DNA from: Butyrivibrio fibrisolvens 16/4
Lineage (GTDB): Bacteria > Bacillota > Clostridia > Lachnospirales > Lachnospiraceae
DNA length: 53,566 nt
Assembly (NCBI GenBank): GCA_000209815.1
Contig: FP929036.1
Location: 2,622,058-2,675,623, forward strand
Direction of reading: 5' to 3'
The translations under genes were made by a program, and so were the position numbers. The notes under the pieces are model-generated. The model had not been told where the DNA came from and made no database searches. It saw only the letters and a list, made by a program, of their open reading frames with translations. Shown one piece after another: positions 21,223-29,654 of the stretch. How positions within the stretch are numbered: the first letter of the stretch is position 1; every line of letters starts with the position of its first letter.

Positions 21223-22425
21223 TTACTCTTCACGATATACTAATACTAATGTCATAATCACTAATGCTAGTATCGTATATACGAAGGCGGCTATCATAGC
21301 TGACCCCATCGTTATCAAACCTTCGCTAGTTAAAATGTCACTTATTTTTAACAATCCGATTGGATTATATTTTGTGTGAATAAAATCACTACTAAGTAGA
21401 TATAAACAATTAAAGAAAAAGAAAACACCAAGTGAATTCACACTATCCTTTAGTAGAATGGATATTAGAAGCACAAATGTAACAATAAATCCACAAACCA
21501 CAAAAACATATAGCATTACACTTTTTAAATACTCTGCCTGCGTAATCGCCACATACTTTCCATTTTCAAGAATTGCAATATAATCATTCAATCCTGTTCC
21601 ATATTTTCGCATCCCTAGAAGCATCATTTCTCCAGCAAATAAGAGCATTACCATATTAGTAAGGATAATTCTAACAAACCATCTTGCCAAAGATATCTGC
21701 GTTCTGCTATATGGCAGTGTAAATGTGATGATGTAACTTCTGTCTTCAAACTCTTTGCACCACGCATCATAATTTAAAAAGAAAATAATACATAAAACGG
21801 CGAAAAACACCATTCCTTTTCCGTCAAACAATGAAATAATAGAAAAGGCTCCTGTTGGGATGTAATGGCAAAGAGGCTCTACTCTTTCCTCTTTCTCATA
21901 AGCTTTATGCAATGCCATTCTCTTAGCCCAGTCTACATGGCCGTGCTTATAAATCCCCTGATCCTCCAGCTCATCAGCAATATCCTCATATTTCTCAAGT
22001 GAATAGTCCGCTTTAGTGTATAATTCCATCGCTTTGTCTTCATCTTTTGGATCCTTGCCCTCATAATACCATGCCATAATTGTGAACTGCTCACAGTCCT
22101 TCCAGGCATCTACCACTTTCTGATATCCCTGAATTTCAAAATCTGCAAACTGGGCATCTAACTCAGATTCTACTTTATTACTTTCAGTTTTAGATTCCAA
22201 ATCATACTGCGTTGCACGAATTCTATCCGTATAATCTTGGGCATGAACTTTATATTCCTCAAGGAACGTGTCTATATCTGCCCTATCATACTCTGGATAC
22301 TTCTCATATTCTGCTTCATATCTATAGTGGAATAAAGCTGCCACAGCTATCATACAAACTATAATTGTAAAAATATTTTTTCGTGAAAAAAATCTTTTAG
22401 CTTCTAGTAATAATAAGTTAGTCAA
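21223..22425 (-). CDS. ABC-2 type permease subunit
   Basis: A 400-residue membrane protein: one N-terminal helix (about 18-33), a large about 160-residue extracytoplasmic acidic, coiled-coil-like domain, then about five helices in the second half. This N-TM plus large loop arrangement is common in ABC-2 permeases for lantibiotic immunity or Na+/peptide export. It overlaps the ATPase stop by 4 bases, so it is part of the three- or four-gene operon 21223-24687. Substrate unknown. Confidence 0.85.
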   Translation of the reverse strand: MTNLLLLEAKRFFSRKNIFTIIVCMIAVAALFHYRYEAEYEKYPEYDRADIDTFLEEYKVHAQDYTDRIRATQYDLESKTESNKVESELDAQFADFEIQGYQKVVDAWKDCEQFTIMAWYYEGKDPKDEDKAMELYTKADYSLEKYEDIADELEDQGIYKHGHVDWAKRMALHKAYEKEERVEPLCHYIPTGAFSIISLFDGKGMVFFAVLCIIFFLNYDAWCKEFEDRSYIITFTLPYSRTQISLARWFVRIILTNMVMLLFAGEMMLLGMRKYGTGLNDYIAILENGKYVAITQAEYLKSVMLYVFVVCGFIVTFVLLISILLKDSVNSLGVFFFFNCLYLLSSDFIHTKYNPIGLLKISDILTSEGLITMGSAMIAAFVYTILALVIMTLVLVYREE

Positions 22426-23143
22426 TTTTTCATAGTATTATTCGTATAAATCCTTATACATTTTTCTAGCTCACCGTACTGATCCTTGATTTCTGCAATT
22501 GTGATATTCTTAATAACCTGACCATCTTTCAGTGCCACTACTCTATCAGCAATCTTTTCCATCTCACCAAGGTAATGTGAGGATACTAATATTGAGCATC
22601 CGCTTTCCTTCAACTCCAAAAGTTTTTCACGAATTTTAATTACTGCATCTACATCCAAGCCATTGGTTGGCTCGTCAAGAATTATAAGCTTTGGTTTTCC
22701 TAGCATCGCCATTGAAAGACCCAAACGCATCTTCATGCCTAGTGAGTATGTACGCACTGGTCTGTCGATGCTGTGTCTAATTCCAGAAAAATCAATAACC
22801 TCCTCAATCTGATCTTTAGGAATTTTCTTTGCACTGGCTATAAACTTTAAATTATCCATTCCAGATAAATCATTAAATGCAGATGGCGTTTCCATACAAA
22901 GTCCAAGATTCGAATATGCGTTATTGCGTTCCTTTTTATATCGTGTCCACATATGGATATGCTTCCCTTATTTAGCTTAAATAGTCCTGTAACACATTTG
23001 ATGATTGTAGTCTTTCCACTTCCGTTTGGTGCAAGTAAACATACAATTTCCTGTTCTCCAACATCAAAAGTCACACCCTGTAATATTTTCTTGGTTCTTT
23101 TTCTTTTATATATGTCATTTATTTCTAGTACTTTTTCTGCCAT
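22422..23143 (-). CDS. ABC transporter ATP-binding protein (frameshifted in this sequence)
   Basis: Restored length 240 residues. Walker A is GSGKTTIIK (preceded by LLAPN), the signature is the divergent YSLGMKMRL, and Walker B is LIILDEPTNGLD, as in exporters of the ABC-2/bacitracin type. A run of plus-strand T at 22933-22937 appears one short; adding one base joins GHDIKK to ERNNAYSNLG without loss. It sits between two permeases (23147-24512 and 21223-22425) and forms a single exporter with them. Confidence 0.9.
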
Positions 23144-23146
23144 AAC

Positions 23147-24512
23147 CTACTCCGTGTCTTTTAGTGAAATTACAATGTTGAAGAATACATAAAGGATGAC
23201 AATAGATGCTACCAACAAAACAACTGCATTTAACCATGTCATTCCGTAACCGCCCAAGGTGATGTTCCAACAGCTGCCTACAGAAAATGGACTCCACCCT
23301 TGCGGATCAAACCTTGGTTGACCTAATATTGATAAAATACTTATAAGTAATCCTACTACTACAGCTTTCGCTTTATCATTAAAAATAAAACCTATTCCTG
23401 AGCCAAGCAAAACATAAAAACAATTTTCAGTATCGCTAAAATTACTGTGTAAAACATAAAATCACACAACTTTATAATTTTATATCTATGAACTGTAAAT
23501 TCCATATATGGAGTAATATAGTCATAGAATACTTTTGATAATCCTACTCTCAGAAATCCCTCTTCATGGTCAAATTTTGAAAAACTAGTAAAATTCCCAT
23601 CATCAATCATCATTTTACTTTCCAAACCTTCAAAACCACTTCGGAAGCCCCATGCAATAAAAAATATCCCACAAAATATCAATAAACACATACAAACTAC
23701 TATGGTAATGGAACTAACATATTTTGAAAAAAAGAAACATCAGAACAATTTATACTTGTCTTTATTCTATAAGAATATTCTTCTTTCCAACTCATGACTA
23801 CTTCTATAGCAAAATATAATAACGAAATAGGTATTATAATATCTGTCAGATTAAAATCTCCGAATAACATACTCAAAAATGTATATGGCGATGCCATATT
23901 ATAATCAATCAAGCCGTTATCTATACTATCAAACACTACTTTTGCCTGAAGAATAAAATTCTGATTTGCTTCAGATAAAGCTGAATCATAGCCCCCTTGC
24001 CCACAATATGCTAATTTATTAAAATCAAATGGCAATTCATCAAGTTTAAGATAATCACCATATTTTTCTAAATCTTCTACGCAAGCCTCGTCTAATGGGA
24101 TATCACCATTTGGTACGCTAATATTTGCTTGAATTTCACATAGACTTTGAATAATCCTATAACGTCTTTGTTCCTCTAAAAACTCTTCTGTAACCGTGCC
24201 TTCCTTCTCCAATTCATTGACGAATGCTTTATCAATCTTTAGACACCACATTAAATAAGAAATCCAATTAACATTTCCTTCTACGGTTCCCATTCCCGGA
24301 TTGTTTTGTTTTAAAAAATAACGTTCACGCATTATTTCTATACGTGTACTAATTATTTCAGATTTATACTGGAAAATATAGTCATCAGCATCGTAATAAT
24401 GCACTGTCTCTCTTAATTGTAATGTAACAATAACACATAAAAAAGAAACAACAAGGATAAGCAATTTTGTATATTTATTTTTCAATATTATTTTCAGAAA
24501 ATAGTAGTTCAT
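23147..24512 (-). CDS. ABC-2 type permease subunit (frameshifted twice in this sequence)
   Basis: Restored length 455 residues. An N-terminal helix (LLILVVSFLCVIVTL) is followed by an about 180-residue extracytoplasmic acidic domain and then about six helices. Two runs appear one base short: plus-strand A run 23727-23733 (7, expected 8) and A run 23409-23412 (4, expected 5). With both restored the three open segments join seamlessly, which argues for a single intact gene. The overall architecture matches the permease at 21223-22425, so the pair probably forms a heterodimer with the ATPase between them. Confidence 0.8.
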
Positions 24513-24687
24513 ACGCTCTCCTGCTGCCTATTATTTTTAATTTATACTCAACTATGTTTCCCAATAGCACCACGCTCCATAAACTAGCAAGAGTAGTACC
24601 TATATTTAGCAACACGTAGACTATATACCTTAATTTGTCTAAATTTGTATTTATTATTTGTAGTATTATTTTAATTTTGTTCCACAT
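24475..24687 (-). CDS. Small membrane protein at head of the ABC operon
   Basis: A 70-residue ORF with one or two hydrophobic stretches (YIVYVLLNIGTTLASLWSVVLLGNIV) that overlaps the first permease by 38 bases. It could be a genuine small subunit or peptide, or the N-terminal remnant of a truncated exporter with a transmembrane domain; no ribosome binding site stands out. I do not recognise a family. Confidence 0.45.
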   Translation of the reverse strand: MWNKIKIILQIINTNLDKLRYIVYVLLNIGTTLASLWSVVLLGNIVEYKLKIIGSRRAYELLFSENNIEK

Positions 24688-24738: not shown

Positions 24739-24786
24739 AAAACCGACAAAGTTGTAGACTTTGTTGTCTACAACTTTGTCGGTTTT
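24739..24786. repeat. Perfect 21-bp inverted repeat between divergent genes
   Basis: Arms 24739-24759 and 24766-24786, loop TTTGTT, both arms perfect (core ACCGACAAAGTTGTAGAC and complement), with T tracts on both strands. It has the form of a bidirectional intrinsic terminator, but lies between the start of the minus-strand ABC operon (24687) and the start of the plus-strand peptide gene (24842), where no transcript is expected to end. It may be an attenuator, an operator or a relic of a rearrangement. Confidence 0.85.
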
Positions 24787-24841
24787 CTTTTTCTGGTGTC
24801 TTTTATATAATAATTTAAGTTTTAAATGGAGGCGACAAACC

Positions 24842-24961
24842 ATGAAGTTACACAAAAAAATATTTATCCTAGCTCTACTGTTTTCACTTACTTTATCCGC
24901 TCCTATTGCACAAACTTTTGCAATCCCAGGTGACGGACCTATTGTATATGAAGACAATTAG
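24842..24961 (+). CDS. Small exported peptide precursor (39 residues), candidate signalling peptide
   Basis: GGAGG lies 9 bases before the ATG and a TATAAT -10 candidate is at 24806-24811. Residues 1-27 form a textbook signal peptide: basic MKLHKK, hydrophobic FILALLFSLTLSAP, cleavage motif Q-T-F-A. The predicted mature product is the 12-residue acidic peptide IPGDGPIVYEDN. No cysteine or lanthionine precursor pattern is visible. It is convergent with the double-HTH regulator (15 bases apart) and divergent from an ABC-2 exporter. This combination resembles a secreted-pheromone circuit, but the function is inference. Confidence 0.7.
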   Translation: MKLHKKIFILALLFSLTLSAPIAQTFAIPGDGPIVYEDN

Positions 24962-24975
24962 TGTATATATCAAAA

Positions 24976-26778
24976 TTATTTTAAATATTTAATCATTGCC
25001 ACTTCATTACAAAAGAGCGCGAATTCATGAGCTATTTTTTTGTAGGTAGTGGCTCTAGCATCTTTATTTGATAGACCTTTCTTTTTTAGATTATTCCATC
25101 CTATGTTATATAAACATGAAGATATCATATCCAAGTTTCTACAATTTAATCCTAGCAATATTAAATCACTGAATAAATTAGTTGATGCATCATATTGCCC
25201 ACTATTTGCCAAAATTCTATCAGCATACCACCTCATAGCCATCATATATCTGATTGAATACTTATATATATTATCACTGGCATAATATAAGCACGCCTTT
25301 ACAATGCTTTCATAATCAGTATTTGTAGATATACATCTATTTAATATTGATACAAACTCACCTCGTGTTATATAAAAAGATTCTATCTTTTCCACAGCAT
25401 TAAGAGGGAGCGAGGTTATAATAGCATGTCTAATATTTTCCTCATACTCATTTTGACTTATGAGCTTCAATTTGAAATTAATTGTATTTGACAATCTTTT
25501 TAATGTCTGTTCATTTATAATATATCCTTTATCTAAACTGGACGCCAACATATCATAGTGATTCTTTGCCATTTCAAATTCATAATCATTAATCAATCGT
25601 TTGCATTGCCTACAAGCCAATATGTCTTTCTTCTTGTCTGTTATAATTCCATATCTTCTGTAAACAAAATCAAGATTAAGTTTCTTGAAAAGCCCAGACA
25701 CCACAGCATATTGTCCAGATGAATGCTTTGCCTCAATTCTTTCTAACGTACGAACACTACATACTCCCTCAGCCAATTCCTCTCTTGATATTCCAAAAGC
25801 CTTTCGCCTTGATCTTATTACTTCTGAAATGTTATGAACTTCCGATGAGCGATAAATATATCCGCTATGTTCCATATCGGAAATATTGGATTCATCCAAA
25901 AGTTCAGCATATTCTTGTGCAAACCTATTCTCAAATTCACTGGTTTCAAATTGAATGCCGAATTTATTACTGATTATTCTTCTCAGTTCCAAAAGTTCCA
26001 ACAAATAGAAACTAGACTTGCTATCTCTTAAAGCTTTCAACGCTTCATTGCTATATTCCCACAAATCAATTTCAAGCTTATTATCCTTTATAGCACTATG
26101 GTCGATGAAGTCATAAAACTTATAAAGTGCCATAGGTAGAACCTTCGCCTTTGTAATATCTCTACCACAAACAGCTACAATGGACTTACATAGATTTTCG
26201 AATCCACTCTTTACTCTTAGTTGCTCCAGCTTGCCACAAATCTTCCCATAGAACTCCAAATATCTAATCAGATAATAAAACTCTTCTGGTGCTGCTAATA
26301 TTCTATTGTCAGAATATAAATCTATTCCAGATAATGAGCACTCCACTGCCTGCTTATATCTTTCAAATATATCTTCATTGGATGCACCCTTTTGCATTAG
26401 TATTCTTGCTTCCATGTCCAATAGGAATTGCTCTTCTATAATATTTTTCGTTTCCCACTTTTCTTTTAGCTCCGCAAGTAATATAGCAGCTTCTTGCGTA
26501 CTTCCAGCTTCAACCAGCTGGAGCAAACGCTCTGATTCCAACCATCGTTCATACTCATCAAAACATACATAATCCTCATATCCCTCAGCAGATACCCCTA
26601 GCCTTCCCATTATGCGATTTCTCATCTGGTAATCGGGTAGTCTCTCTCCTGAGGTTATAAAATTCATCTGGCTCCGTGAACAAAGCCCAGTCCTCAGTTC
26701 TTCAGTTGTTACTCCACGCTCTTCTAACATCAGATTTAAAAGTGCGTGAAAACCTATTATGTCCTTCTCGTGTCGCAA
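24976..26778 (-). CDS. Large regulator with two helix-turn-helix domains and helical repeats
   Basis: A 600-residue cytoplasmic protein. The first XRE-like HTH is at about residues 8-62 (LLNLMLEERGVTTEELRTGLCSRSQ), followed by about 240 residues of probable TPR-like helical repeats. A second, clearer XRE HTH is at about 317-371 (VIRSRRKAFGISREELAEGVC then SVRTLERIEA), followed by a further about 230 residues of helices. The two halves look like a tandem duplication. HTH-TPR architecture is shared with the RRNPP peptide-sensing family (Rgg, PlcR, PrgX; established knowledge). A peptide gene ends 15 bases from its stop. Upstream, 37 bases away, is an AAA ATPase in the same direction. Ligand not known. 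Confidence 0.65.
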   Translation of the reverse strand: MRHEKDIIGFHALLNLMLEERGVTTEELRTGLCSRSQMNFITSGERLPDYQMRNRIMGRLGVSAEGYEDYVCFDEYERWLESERLLQLVEAGSTQEAAILLAELKEKWETKNIIEEQFLLDMEARILMQKGASNEDIFERYKQAVECSLSGIDLYSDNRILAAPEEFYYLIRYLEFYGKICGKLEQLRVKSGFENLCKSIVAVCGRDITKAKVLPMALYKFYDFIDHSAIKDNKLEIDLWEYSNEALKALRDSKSSFYLLELLELRRIISNKFGIQFETSEFENRFAQEYAELLDESNISDMEHSGYIYRSSEVHNISEVIRSRRKAFGISREELAEGVCSVRTLERIEAKHSSGQYAVVSGLFKKLNLDFVYRRYGIITDKKKDILACRQCKRLINDYEFEMAKNHYDMLASSLDKGYIINEQTLKRLSNTINFKLKLISQNEYEENIRHAIITSLPLNAVEKIESFYITRGEFVSILNRCISTNTDYESIVKACLYYASDNIYKYSIRYMMAMRWYADRILANSGQYDASTNLFSDLILLGLNCRNLDMISSCLYNIGWNNLKKKGLSNKDARATTYKKIAHEFALFCNEVAMIKYLK

Positions 26779-26815
26779 AACTATAGTCCCTCGATATTCT
26801 GGTAATATTTCTTCT

Positions 26816-27853
26816 CTACATCATATCTATAATGTAATCTTTAAAAAATGGCAATGCAAATGACAGCTTGCCCTTTGTTTTTGAGGCTGATAAAACACCA
26901 GACTTAATCAATGTGGCTCTGTATGTTGAATAGTTATTATCATCGATTCCCAATGCTGTCTTTATATCACTAGCCATAGAGTCCTGATTAGATTTGGCAA
27001 TTTCAATACATATTCTTTGTTCATTAGCCGATAATTCTTCCCATATTTTTTCATAAGATTTTTCATATAAAGCGTACCTAAGCTCACTGCATATTTCATC
27101 ATCAGTCTTTAACTTATTATTTTTGAACAGAAGATACCCTAACATTTGAAAAGCATAAGAATAACCTTCAATCATATTTGATGCTTCTATTGCATCATCA
27201 AAATTCATTTTTAAAGTATCCTTGTATTCTGTTGCTATCCTATATGAATCCAAAGGAGTTAGATTAATTTTTTCTGCCCTTCGTAAAAAAGTAAGTGATT
27301 TATTATTTTCTAATGCTCTAATATTCTTAAATAGGCCAGTCATAATAACATATACTGGATATTCTTTTCTCAAGCATTGCTGAAAATATGTTGCAAACTC
27401 CCTCATTGAAACTGAATTTACAGCCTCATCAATTGTAATCAAAAGTCTAATTTTATCCTTTGCTAGCTTCTCTAGAATTTTGCTTAATTCAACCTTTATG
27501 GTACTATACCTGGCTTCTTTTGATTCAACTTCTACATTGAGTGCTTTCAAGTTTACAGATATATTTAATTTAGGCAGCTTTGACTTACATTTATTTTCAA
27601 GTTCAGATATAAAATCCTGCATAACATTTTCGGATGAAAGATCTATGTGAATCCAATTATCCTGTTCTTCTATCTTCTGTGCGATTGAAGTCATCATTAC
27701 AGTCTTCCCCATGCCTCTGGCACCAATTATCATGTATAAATGCGTAGATGGTTCCTCTGCCAAAAAAGTATTTAGTACTGTCTCTTCCTCTTCAATTCTA
27801 GGAATATAAAGCTTTGGCTTTGCTCCAAAGTCTAATCTAAATGGATTATTCAT
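26816..27853 (-). CDS. AAA ATPase (archaeal-type ATPase/STAND-like)
   Basis: A 345-residue protein with Walker A GARGMGKTVMM (residues 44-54), Walker B LLITIDEA (D142, E143), a sensor-like threonine in VIMTGLFKN and, in the last about 100 residues, an HTH-like helical domain ending KLSFALPFFKDYII. This matches the PF01637 archaeal ATPase pattern, widespread in bacteria with unknown roles. It is co-transcribed with the double-HTH regulator 37 bases downstream. The two may form a regulatory complex; this is inference. The ATG at 27853 is preceded by a GGAGGAATTTTAAT site. Confidence 0.8.
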   Translation of the reverse strand: MNNPFRLDFGAKPKLYIPRIEEEETVLNTFLAEEPSTHLYMIIGARGMGKTVMMTSIAQKIEEQDNWIHIDLSSENVMQDFISELENKCKSKLPKLNISVNLKALNVEVESKEARYSTIKVELSKILEKLAKDKIRLLITIDEAVNSVSMREFATYFQQCLRKEYPVYVIMTGLFKNIRALENNKSLTFLRRAEKINLTPLDSYRIATEYKDTLKMNFDDAIEASNMIEGYSYAFQMLGYLLFKNNKLKTDDEICSELRYALYEKSYEKIWEELSANEQRICIEIAKSNQDSMASDIKTALGIDDNNYSTYRATLIKSGVLSASKTKGKLSFALPFFKDYIIDMM

Positions 27854-27880
27854 ATTAAAATTCCTCCACTATAAATTCGT

Positions 27881-28100
27881 ATTACTGTTTATTACAGTTT
27901 ATTACTATTTATTACTGTTTTCAAGATTATATTACTGTTTATTACTGTTTTAATATTTTAGGTACTTTATAAGATATATTGCTTTAAGTGTTGTGTTTCA
28001 CTGTCTAAGATAAAGGTTTTATTCATTTCCGAGCTACTTGTATTACAACTTATTACAGGTTTTATTTTTTATTACAACTTATTACAGGTTATTACAACTT
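27881..28100. repeat. Two clusters of 10-bp phased repeats upstream of the AAA ATPase
   Basis: Left cluster: ATTACTGTTT at 27881, 27911, 27931 and 27941, with variants ATTACAGTTT (27891) and ATTACTATTT (27901), one decamer slot (27921) degenerate. Right cluster: ATTACAACTT or ATTACAGGTT at 28042, 28052, 28071, 28081 and 28091. The period within each run is exactly 10 bases, so every copy faces the same side of the helix. The clusters cover 27881-27950 and 28042-28100, upstream of the ATPase start at 27853. Confidence 0.85.
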
Positions 28101-28183: not shown

Positions 28184-29127
28184 CTACTTAAATACATCAC
28201 ATCGATTTGAAATTAAGCTAATTAATTCCTCCTGCATGTGCATAGGAATATATGACTGATTTACTTCTTTTATTATCTTTTGCTCCATTTTCAAAAGCTG
28301 TGATATTAGTCGTTCTGCCACTTTTTTTGTAATACCAAGGTTCTCCGCAAGTATTAGAAAATCCTTTTTCTGATGTTTCGTTTTTACCATTTACTGTAAG
28401 AGCCATTTGTTCTTTATCTTCCGGCATTATTATATTCACTGGCAACATATCATAAGCTGCGGACAAACCAAACACTCTACTTCCAGGTGAATCTTCTATG
28501 AGAGAAAAATTCTTTAAATGCATATCCGAATTTCCTGTCAAAAAACAGAAAACAAGTCTATAAAAAAGTTCAGTTTCATCCAAACCTACATTTTTGGAAT
28601 ATTTCTGAATTACTCTGCCACAGCCTTCATAAGAGCCTTTATATTTGTCCGAGGTAATCCTATTTGAAAGCTGACAGAAATCCTCCATTGCATACATTTC
28701 TTTACCTCTTCTATCAATTCTTTTCGTAATGTATGCGTATGTATTATTCATTTTAATTAGGGCATTCGGTACTGTTTTTATTCCTACAAGCTCTGCTAAC
28801 TTCATAGATAGAAATTCAGCTTCAGGCAAAGCATCAAAATCATCTGATTCAGGTTTCAGAATATATCCTGTTGGATAATCTACAATTGTAAAACGAGCAG
28901 ACTTATCCTCCGCATCCAGATGTAGTGATAGTTTTTCTGAACACCGGGTACAGTTAGTCCTTTAGTTACTGTAGAATTTGCCAGCTCTTCCAATTGTTTT
29001 TCTGAAATATCTATAATTGGCATCGATGCAACTCCAAAGAATTGCTTTATACAATGAGAATGCCAGCTATTTATTTTTCCTGTTCAGTTGGATTATTTAT
29101 TTCCTTGTTACAACATAAACATCTCAT
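28184..29127 (-). CDS. hipT: HipT-like serine/threonine kinase toxin (frameshifted in this sequence)
   Basis: HipT kinases phosphorylate a tRNA synthetase and halt growth. Restored product about 315 residues: an N-terminal CLCC (CxxC) element, the nucleotide-binding loop region TKGLTVPGVQKKLSLHL, and the HipA-type catalytic motif GNSDMHLKNFSLIEDSPG followed by the metal-binding AYDMLP. HipA's N-subdomain-1 is absent and is instead encoded by the separate gene next door. Three A/T runs disrupt the frame: 29074-29078 and 28932-28936 (one short each), and 28381-28385 (two short or one long). The ATG at 29127 is 3 bases after the hipS stop. Confidence 0.82.
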
Positions 29128-29129
29128 AA

Positions 29130-29446
29130 TTATTCTGCCTCTATGTACACATCACCTATGCAGTCTCTGCATGCCGCTAATAGCAATCCAAATCTATCTT
29201 TTCCATCTATTTTCCAGTTTCTTTCTACAACACCAAGCAACCAGCCTTCTGGAATGAGTCCATCAAAAAAGGAAATAGGATGTTCGATTTGTATAAATCT
29301 GAAGATAAAGGCAATGTCATACTTACAGCTACAGCATTATCTTGCGAGATATAGCTAGAATCATACTCGAATGCATAGCCTTCATCAGTTTCATAGATTC
29401 GTCCGGCATAAGTATTTTGAACAAAAACTCTTCCTGCTCTATTCAT
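29130..29446 (-). CDS. hipS: HipS-like protein (HipA N-subdomain-1 homologue), frameshifted in this sequence
   Basis: Restored length 105 residues. The first half (VQNTYAGRIYETDEGYAFEY) matches the HipA N-terminal domain 1, and the second half contains the typical FFDGLIPEG and GDVYIE motifs. In the HipBST system this small protein acts as antitoxin of HipT (established for E. coli O127). Plus-strand A run 29265-29270 seems one short; without it the frame would diverge from FFDGLIPEGW. It overlaps hipB by 8 bases. Confidence 0.82.
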
Positions 29447-29654
29447 CTAATTTGCTCCTATCTATTTCTCCAGGTACAGCTTCCATGCCAAACATGCTTA
29501 GCGCTTGGTTCACCTTGTCAAGGCGCACTGTCTCCTTCCCCTGCTCTAATTCGCGCACAAAACGAAGGCCTAGCCCTGCCCTCATGGCAAACTCCTCCTG
29601 TGTAAGTCCTGCTTTTTTTCTTTCAGTTTTTATGTATTCTCCAATAGTATTCAT
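29439..29654 (-). CDS. hipB: HipB-like XRE family antitoxin/repressor
   Basis: A 71-residue DNA-binding protein with a single XRE helix-turn-helix (YIKTERKKAGLTQEEFAMRA, then FVRELEQGKETV). First gene of hipB-hipS-hipT. Three operators lie directly upstream, in agreement with the known autorepression of hip operons. Confidence 0.88.
   Translation of the reverse strand: MNTIGEYIKTERKKAGLTQEEFAMRAGLGLRFVRELEQGKETVRLDKVNQALSMFGMEAVPGEIDRSKLDE

Follow-up and report, generated by a model that had tools for sequence, protein, structure and literature searches.

A propeptide gene convergent with a double helix-turn-helix receptor: an apparently overlooked class of candidate cell-to-cell signalling systems in Lachnospiraceae

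The locus and its features

The window analysed here is a stretch of 53,566 nucleotides from Butyrivibrio fibrisolvens 16/4 (contig FP929036.1, positions 2,622,058 to 2,675,623), and all coordinates refer to it. It carries a short gene for a putative exported peptide that converges on the gene of a 600-residue regulator with two helix-turn-helix (HTH) domains, and this pair, a candidate quorum-sensing system of the RRNPP type, is the subject of the present study. The original prediction, made from the sequence, had placed the peptide open reading frame (ORF), the regulator, an AAA ATPase and a leftward ABC-2 region next to each other, and this layout was confirmed with each gene at its predicted position. 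The features of the pair are as follows (TPR, tetratricopeptide repeat).

24739..24786, no strand assigned: palindrome with 21-bp arms from inverted-repeat analysis, terminator-like on both strands; candidate operator and/or terminator of the receptor mRNA
24806..24811, + strand: TATAAT, a -10-like element of the peptide gene, read from the sequence and absent from the computed promoter list
24828..24832, + strand: Shine-Dalgarno sequence GGAGG, read from the sequence, 9 nt ahead of the ATG
24842..24961, + strand: propeptide gene (candidate pheromone) with lysine n-region, hydrophobic core, TFA/IPG-like site and acidic C-terminus IPGDGPIVYEDN
24976..26778, - strand: double RRNPP-type receptor, 600 aa, HTH-TPR-HTH-TPR, TTG start (profile, AlphaFold2, Foldseek, half-versus-half alignment)
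26602..26751, - strand: first XRE-type HTH, residues 10-59 (AlphaFold2; family-profile matches to PrgX, Lmo0325 and Rgg-type chains in the N-terminal part)
25891..26562, - strand: first TPR-like helical array, residues 73-296 (AlphaFold2)
25681..25830, - strand: second XRE-type HTH, residues 317-366 (HTH_3 just above cut-off; AlphaFold2)
24982..25632, - strand: second TPR-like helical array, residues 383-599 (AlphaFold2; family-profile match to PlcR 2qfc in the C half, E 4.2e-15)

The small ORF encodes a 39-aa Sec-type propeptide, MKLHKKIFILALLFSLTLSAPIAQTFAIPGDGPIVYEDN, with its ATG at 24842 and a stop codon that ends at 24961, 14 bp from the stop codon of the convergent regulator gene. The 39-codon gene, its strong Shine-Dalgarno sequence and its predicted signal peptide all stood as first described, whereas the 12-residue mature product remains a prediction derived from reading TFA/IPG as the cleavage site. 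The TATAAT element at 24806 is not accompanied by a good -35 element, and such a poor -35 would suit an activator-dependent promoter.

For the regulator, an AlphaFold2 model from a six-sequence alignment (pLDDT 81, pTM 0.84; an alignment-free run with pLDDT 42 was not used) displayed the order HTH-TPR-HTH-TPR, and the N half proved homologous to the C half (hhalign, E 2.3e-30), which bears out the initial view of two HTHs embedded in TPR-like helices. The TPR fold expected of the regulator was found by AlphaFold2, by Foldseek and by the family profile alike. Comparison of a 12-member family profile with the Protein Data Bank (PDB) gave PlcR (2qfc) over the C half as the best RRNPP match, at the E-value listed above, with further matches to PrgX, Lmo0325, Rgg and ComR via the HTHs and to generic TPR proteins. 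The top Foldseek match was the PlcR-PapR-DNA complex 3u3w (E 2.6e-4, TM-score 0.45 by target length), and Rgg2 and Rap followed at ranks 7 and 10 among generic TPR proteins. Domain libraries were less informative: the Pfam model PF18768 RNPP_C was present in two of the 12 members, Pfam TPR or RNPP_C models matched only a minority of them, and an NCBIfam scan of the window receptor gave no matching name and two matches, both far below cut-off.

At five loci, single-unit genes of the N-half type and then the C-half type lie adjacent to each other (L011, L016, L045, L048 and L093; L numbers denote loci), and at L097 they stand in the reverse order. Such pairs may be ancestral to the double receptor, before fusion, or may have arisen from it by splitting. 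Since the halves are homologous and such adjacent single-unit genes exist, the double receptor seems to have arisen by fusion or duplication of PlcR-like units.

Recurrence of the receptor and its convergent partner

Lachnospiraceae are major gut and rumen bacteria. A search with the window protein found relatives in 11 of 200 genomes of this family, and the 12-sequence profile matched 49 of 396, covering 40 of 280 genera (own genome included in both searches); the latter count includes single-unit relatives and at most three scored places per genome, a number that several genomes reached. Scanning genome contigs with a four-row alignment gave six loci. The loci fetched held 97 distinct regulator ORFs, comprising 54 double-HTH, 23 C-half-like and 19 N-half-like proteins and one unclear case. 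Order-wide sampling at E 1e-30 gave 17 of 392 genomes, 15 of which belong to the family (own included), and phylum-wide sampling at E 1e-40 recovered only the own genome among 398. No receptor relative was found in a plasmid search, nor among 35 pattern matches in viral contigs. Phage records gave one weak match, a 627-aa receptor relative in MT837868.1 (L137), an unverified record of 6 kb from human feces that is named "Bacteriophage sp." and is probably a bacterial contig. The own genome encodes two further relatives, 37% and 28% identical (L002, L003), each with a short convergent ORF at the 3' end that has a Shine-Dalgarno sequence and a signal-peptide-like N-terminus; the L003 regulator is split into several frames, is described in pieces and was tallied as a miss.

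To count as a peptide ORF, a frame had to begin with ATG, span 30-75 aa, have a Shine-Dalgarno word and carry two or more K/R ahead of a hydrophobic stretch of 11 residues with a mean hydropathy of 1.8 or higher. It also had to lie between 150 bp inside and 420 bp past the regulator end; these thresholds were set after the first loci had been viewed. In the first scan, a convergent peptide ORF was present at 34 of 53 double receptors, compared with one of 53 codirectional downstream, none of 52 upstream on the same strand and one of 52 upstream and divergent, and single-unit receptors had a convergent ORF in 6/22 (C-half) and 5/19 cases (N-half). A slightly widened scan gave 35/53 doubles versus 1/105 other ORFs of the same loci and 1/1060 dinucleotide-shuffled windows. 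The convergent arrangement is far beyond chance. In an enlarged set (ORFs of 30-80 aa) it was seen at 49 of 70 doubles, against one of 70 codirectional cases, and at 7/26 C-half and 5/21 N-half receptors; one double and one C-type receptor with less than 250 bp downstream were left out of the widened scan, and likewise of the enlarged set. The conserved pairing of a small secreted ORF with the double-HTH regulator that had been proposed for Lachnospiraceae is thus borne out. The two stop codons are at most 15 bp apart in 39 of the 49 pairs, and in 16 the gap is exactly -4, i.e. a 4-bp overlap.

A loosely defined AXA-like site follows the hydrophobic core in 35 of the 49 propeptides. The acidic nature ascribed to the peptide applies to the tail in the window and to the family at large, with the last 15 residues net negative in 40/49 and positive in seven. 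Conservation of the peptide beside homologous regulators was observed for the presence of the gene; its sequence, in contrast, was similar only where the receptors are close, and the mature part of the window peptide has no significant similarity to those of its nearest relatives. Among the 12 closest receptor pairs listed, nine had tail scores of at least 36 (the others 18, 23 and 9), and conserved tails include ISTYSDDEP / VSTYSDEDP (L030, L110) and CQxLxEDDxP (L034, L051). An alignment of IPGDGPIVYEDN with relatives' peptides made by eye was not significant and is not claimed. The ratio pN/pS was 0.33-0.83 in nine of nine related propeptide pairs, which fits translation of the propeptide ORFs. 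The propeptide beside a 629-aa relative (L100) contains GDEDVGYAAE in two copies, and internal duplication is known for RRNPP propeptides (PMC9765709). The orthologous propeptides of L171, L172 and L173 are nearly identical except for their last 7-8 residues (RNVLFNQ, ISILRNQ and THRVNVNQ), a divergence of tails like that of pherotypes.

The palindrome core of the window occurs once in its genome, at the locus itself. The 200 bp upstream contain a strong inverted repeat in 24 of 44 peptide genes (34 of these 44 beside doubles) versus 0/132 shuffles; in 22 of the 24 its 3' edge lay 130 to 40 bp ahead of the start codon, and seven of the 24 open with a half-site containing ATGAC. The dyad CATGACN{20,46}GTCATG was then scanned for in seven genomes picked for carrying the half-site and in the own genome, giving 56 forward matches, none of them in the own genome. 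Eleven extended as dyads (at least six of the next eight positions complementary), and nine of these lie at receptor-peptide loci. One locus (G286:C150, genome and contig) was found from the dyad alone, and inspection there showed fragments of a regulator and a signal-peptide ORF in convergent position.

Proposed mechanism and relation to known systems

Based on the gene layout and its recurrence, the receptor's homology, predicted fold class and internal duplication, and the recurrence of the palindrome, we read the two genes as a peptide quorum-sensing pair of the RRNPP type with a duplicated receptor, with a probability of about 0.78. The propeptide would be exported by Sec, trimmed to a short acidic C-terminal pheromone of about 8-15 residues and re-imported, probably by an Opp-type transporter (the own genome encodes three SBP_bac_5 proteins). 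One or both TPR halves would bind the pheromone. The receptor, with two HTHs per chain, would work as a dimer at the ~45-bp palindrome that separates the peptide gene from divergent cargo genes. Peptide binding would switch the receptor such that the peptide gene, in positive feedback, and the cargo are transcribed together.

Several observations weigh against this interpretation. The window receptor alone matched no RRNPP structure in the PDB search, so its link to RRNPP rests on the family profile and the fold, and Foldseek ranked a human APC/C subunit second (E 5.4e-4), with later matches mostly to generic TPR proteins. Under the rules used, no peptide ORF was found at 21 of the 70 double receptors, and the distribution of the family is patchy, with 4/29 genomes in the own genus at E 1e-20. 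The pN/pS ratios given above come in several pairs, aligned as proteins, from sites that are few or saturated. A Mantel test of 46 receptors showed no significant correlation between receptor similarity and mature-peptide similarity (rho 0.06, 296/2000 permutations; three of the 49 propeptides left out), where the signal-peptide part did no worse than the mature part (107/2000). The mature part in the window scored 13-17 against the peptides of the three nearest receptors listed, as low as pairs of distant receptors in that list. As to the palindromes, two of the 11 extended dyads lie away from any receptor (G194:C14, and G194:C125:91 near a contig end), and 14 of the 24 strong palindromes have a T-rich flank (antisense side 12, sense side 7). 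The former dyad (L156 2612) is flanked by what we take to be MATE-like and MecA-like genes and could be a regulon site or a terminator, and the latter presumably stands beside a transposase-like ORF.

Because of these T-rich flanks, the reading that the palindrome is only a terminator of the receptor mRNA, with the receptor binding elsewhere, stays alive as a serious, if less favoured, alternative. The terminator-like character of 24739-24786 on both strands and the position of the G194:C14 dyad between two unrelated genes point the same way. Conversely, the CATGAC half-site is found at receptor loci in seven genomes of different genera, including nine of the 11 extended dyads; shared sequence among palindromes is not expected of terminators, and neither this nor the position of the 3' edge relative to the start codon in 22/24 favours a terminator function only. 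Still, the two roles are compatible, and the palindrome is tentatively attributed to an operator that may double as a terminator.

A more specific version of the RRNPP-type interpretation is put forward with clear reservation, as it is more probably incorrect than correct. Here the Lachnospiraceae branch would possess a built-in receptor pseudo-dimer made of two fused RRNPP units. Each unit would have a DNA-reading head and a peptide groove of its own, so that a single chain could integrate two signals, either its own and a neighbour's or two forms of the peptide. A dimer with four HTHs would read the 45-bp palindrome, the half-sites would have diversified with the receptors, and the two-gene forms would represent fusion or splitting in progress.

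Among known systems, PlcR/PapR of the Bacillus cereus group (2qfc, 3u3w) is the closest, with an XRE HTH followed by TPR-like repeats and the best match in both profile and fold; it also features a neighbouring exported peptide, positive feedback and a palindromic operator. PlcR is one HTH-TPR unit (293-residue chain), whereas the double receptor holds two in a single chain of ~600 residues and thereby departs from the PlcR-subfamily architecture of a single N-terminal HTH plus TPR in about 285 aa. Furthermore, papR is codirectional with plcR while the peptide gene is convergent here. Convergent gene order is known from TprA/PhrA of Streptococcus pneumoniae, a PlcR-like single-unit receptor with a Phr-type propeptide. 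Rgg/SHP and ComR/ComS of streptococci resemble the present pair in joining an HTH-TPR receptor and a small peptide gene, and some shp genes run against rgg and overlap its 3' end. In comparison with the single receptor of Rgg/SHP, the loci described here combine a double receptor with Sec-type leaders and acidic tails, and the predominantly negative charge of these tails differs from the short hydrophobic, uncharged peptides of that group. The short, hydrophobic SHPs leave the cell through PptAB (PMC10075063). A link to radical-SAM peptides (PMC13361665) is a further point of likeness to the streptococcal systems. Several RRNPP pairs per genome, as in the own genome, are a point of likeness to Qsr/Qsp of Clostridium acetobutylicum and Alo of Paenibacillus polymyxa. 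Qsp precursors measure 39-50 aa with a charged and hydrophobic N-terminus, and their mostly hydrophobic tails share L, P and W (PMC7376267); Alo receptors have an N-terminal HTH, and small ORFs were sought at the 3' end of their genes (PMC7425212). As described in these papers, Qsr and Alo receptors have one HTH each, the double receptor two.

The resemblance to RRNPP sensing noted at the outset is upheld by an exported-peptide gene next to an HTH-TPR receptor whose best profile match is PlcR. An adjacent propeptide gene of 10-100 aa with a predicted export signal is present (39 aa here; 49/70 doubles), as are TPR-like repeats (predicted arrays 73-296 and 383-599; Foldseek matches to PlcR, Rgg2 and Rap), and homology to a reference RRNPP receptor was established by the family profile and not by the window protein alone. 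RRNPP_detector accepts receptors of 250-500 aa (PMC10075063). It would skip the double receptors because their length (600 aa here, mostly 580-710 aa) exceeds that range, whereas each half alone, at ~300 aa, would fall within it. As the duplicated receptor departs from both this length rule and the single-unit architecture, the pair is set apart as a variant of RRNPP signalling.

The word Lachnospiraceae does not occur in the excerpt of the RRNPP_detector paper (PMC10075063), and "Lachnospira" and "two HTH" were not found in those of PMC12700828 and PMC9765709. A search of openly licensed papers in PubMed Central found none joining RRNPP, quorum sensing and Lachnospiraceae, and the matches listed by further, in part very broad, searches included no RRNPP system in Lachnospiraceae and no double-HTH RRNPP receptor. 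The loci thus apparently represent an overlooked class of bacterial cell-to-cell signalling systems, of which the new element is the duplicated receptor in RRNPP-type quorum sensing, with a function that we infer. Many loci combine a predicted peptide with a predicted operator and a candidate target next to them, so that signalling among these bacteria can be tested directly with synthetic peptides.

Neighbouring genes and alternative roles

Three further features flank the pair in the window.

21223..24687, - strand: divergent ABC-2 transporter region (frames 22422-22952, 22847-23143, 23147-23410, 23392-23691, 23700-24512 and 24475-24687)
26816..27853, - strand: AAA ATPase of another widespread family, 37 bp upstream of the receptor gene on the same strand, outside the conserved module
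27869..28100, - strand: two direct-repeat clusters (GTAATAA on the - strand, mostly in 10-bp multiples) upstream of the ATPase gene, belonging to the ATPase family

The ABC-2 region, which starts leftward at 24687/24512 and is split by frame breaks, is divergent from the peptide gene, and at 36 of 42 loci the nearest ORF past the peptide gene with a length of 100 aa or more likewise points away from it. A Pfam scan of 30 of the 40 divergent neighbours listed identified six radical-SAM proteins, one SPASM protein, two ABC transporters and one MFS protein, further families being glycosyltransferase, EAL, LytTR, GH43, ThiF and M16 peptidase; 12/30 were without a Pfam family, several with N-termini that look secreted by eye. 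The divergent ABC-2 exporter initially noted is therefore present in the window, albeit as one of many gene types in that position across the family. Such neighbours fit a cargo model of receptor, peptide, palindrome and cargo. At L159 (1906-12440, G239:C15), a radical-SAM gene, an ABC-like gene and one more ORF lie between two double receptors; this stretch holds a receptor-peptide pair and a second receptor of 890 aa, and looks like a peptide-regulated modified-peptide cluster.

The radical-SAM or SPASM proteins in 7/30 divergent positions are of the kind found in modified-peptide clusters and, together with the wide variation of the peptide sequences, speak for the peptide being an effector, a bacteriocin or a modified-peptide precursor under control of a receptor that senses something else. 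We consider this improbable, as the peptide gene is also present at the 23 of 30 loci whose scanned neighbour is neither radical-SAM nor SPASM, a Sec-type leader with an acidic tail is seen in 40/49, and in RRNPP systems the ligand is classically encoded as a propeptide next to the receptor (PMC10075063).

The proposal that peptide, regulator and AAA ATPase act together in a three-part circuit is very unlikely to hold. Co-transcription is plausible given the 37-bp gap on the same strand; however, among 71 receptor loci the ATPase homologue was found only in that of the window, which served as positive control (at least 1 kb of upstream flank was available at 64 of the 71 double receptors). The ATPase family occurs in 35/200 family genomes, only five of which also appear in the receptor list, and 20 ATPase loci revealed no recurring partner gene, so that a role of the ATPase as partner is not supported. 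Its profile had no match to solved structures at E 1e-3. At least four copies of a 6-mer at 10, 19-20 or 29-bp spacing were present just upstream of the start at 19 of the 20 ATPase loci (L116-L135) versus 0/196 other genes, by a measure set after the arrays had been viewed. In most cases the word varies from locus to locus, a pattern that looks like coevolution of ATPase and array.

Least probable of all is a reading in the logic of type I toxin-antitoxin systems, with the small ORF as a membrane toxin that the antisense 3' end of the receptor mRNA keeps silent: the stops overlap or nearly touch at most loci, the small ORF has a hydrophobic N-terminus and the receptor transcript would cross the peptide gene if it ended at the palindrome, but the tails are acidic and variable, an AXA-like site is present in 35/49, the partner is an RRNPP-type receptor and one propeptide carries two GDEDVGYAAE copies.

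At L002 and L111 the relatives of the window receptor lie beside genes that are presumably SbcCD-like, so the gene upstream is not constant. Frame-split genes are also found in the hipBA-like region 28218-29654 of the window, and the broken frames there and in 21223-24687 reflect either decay or homopolymer sequencing errors of the assembly.

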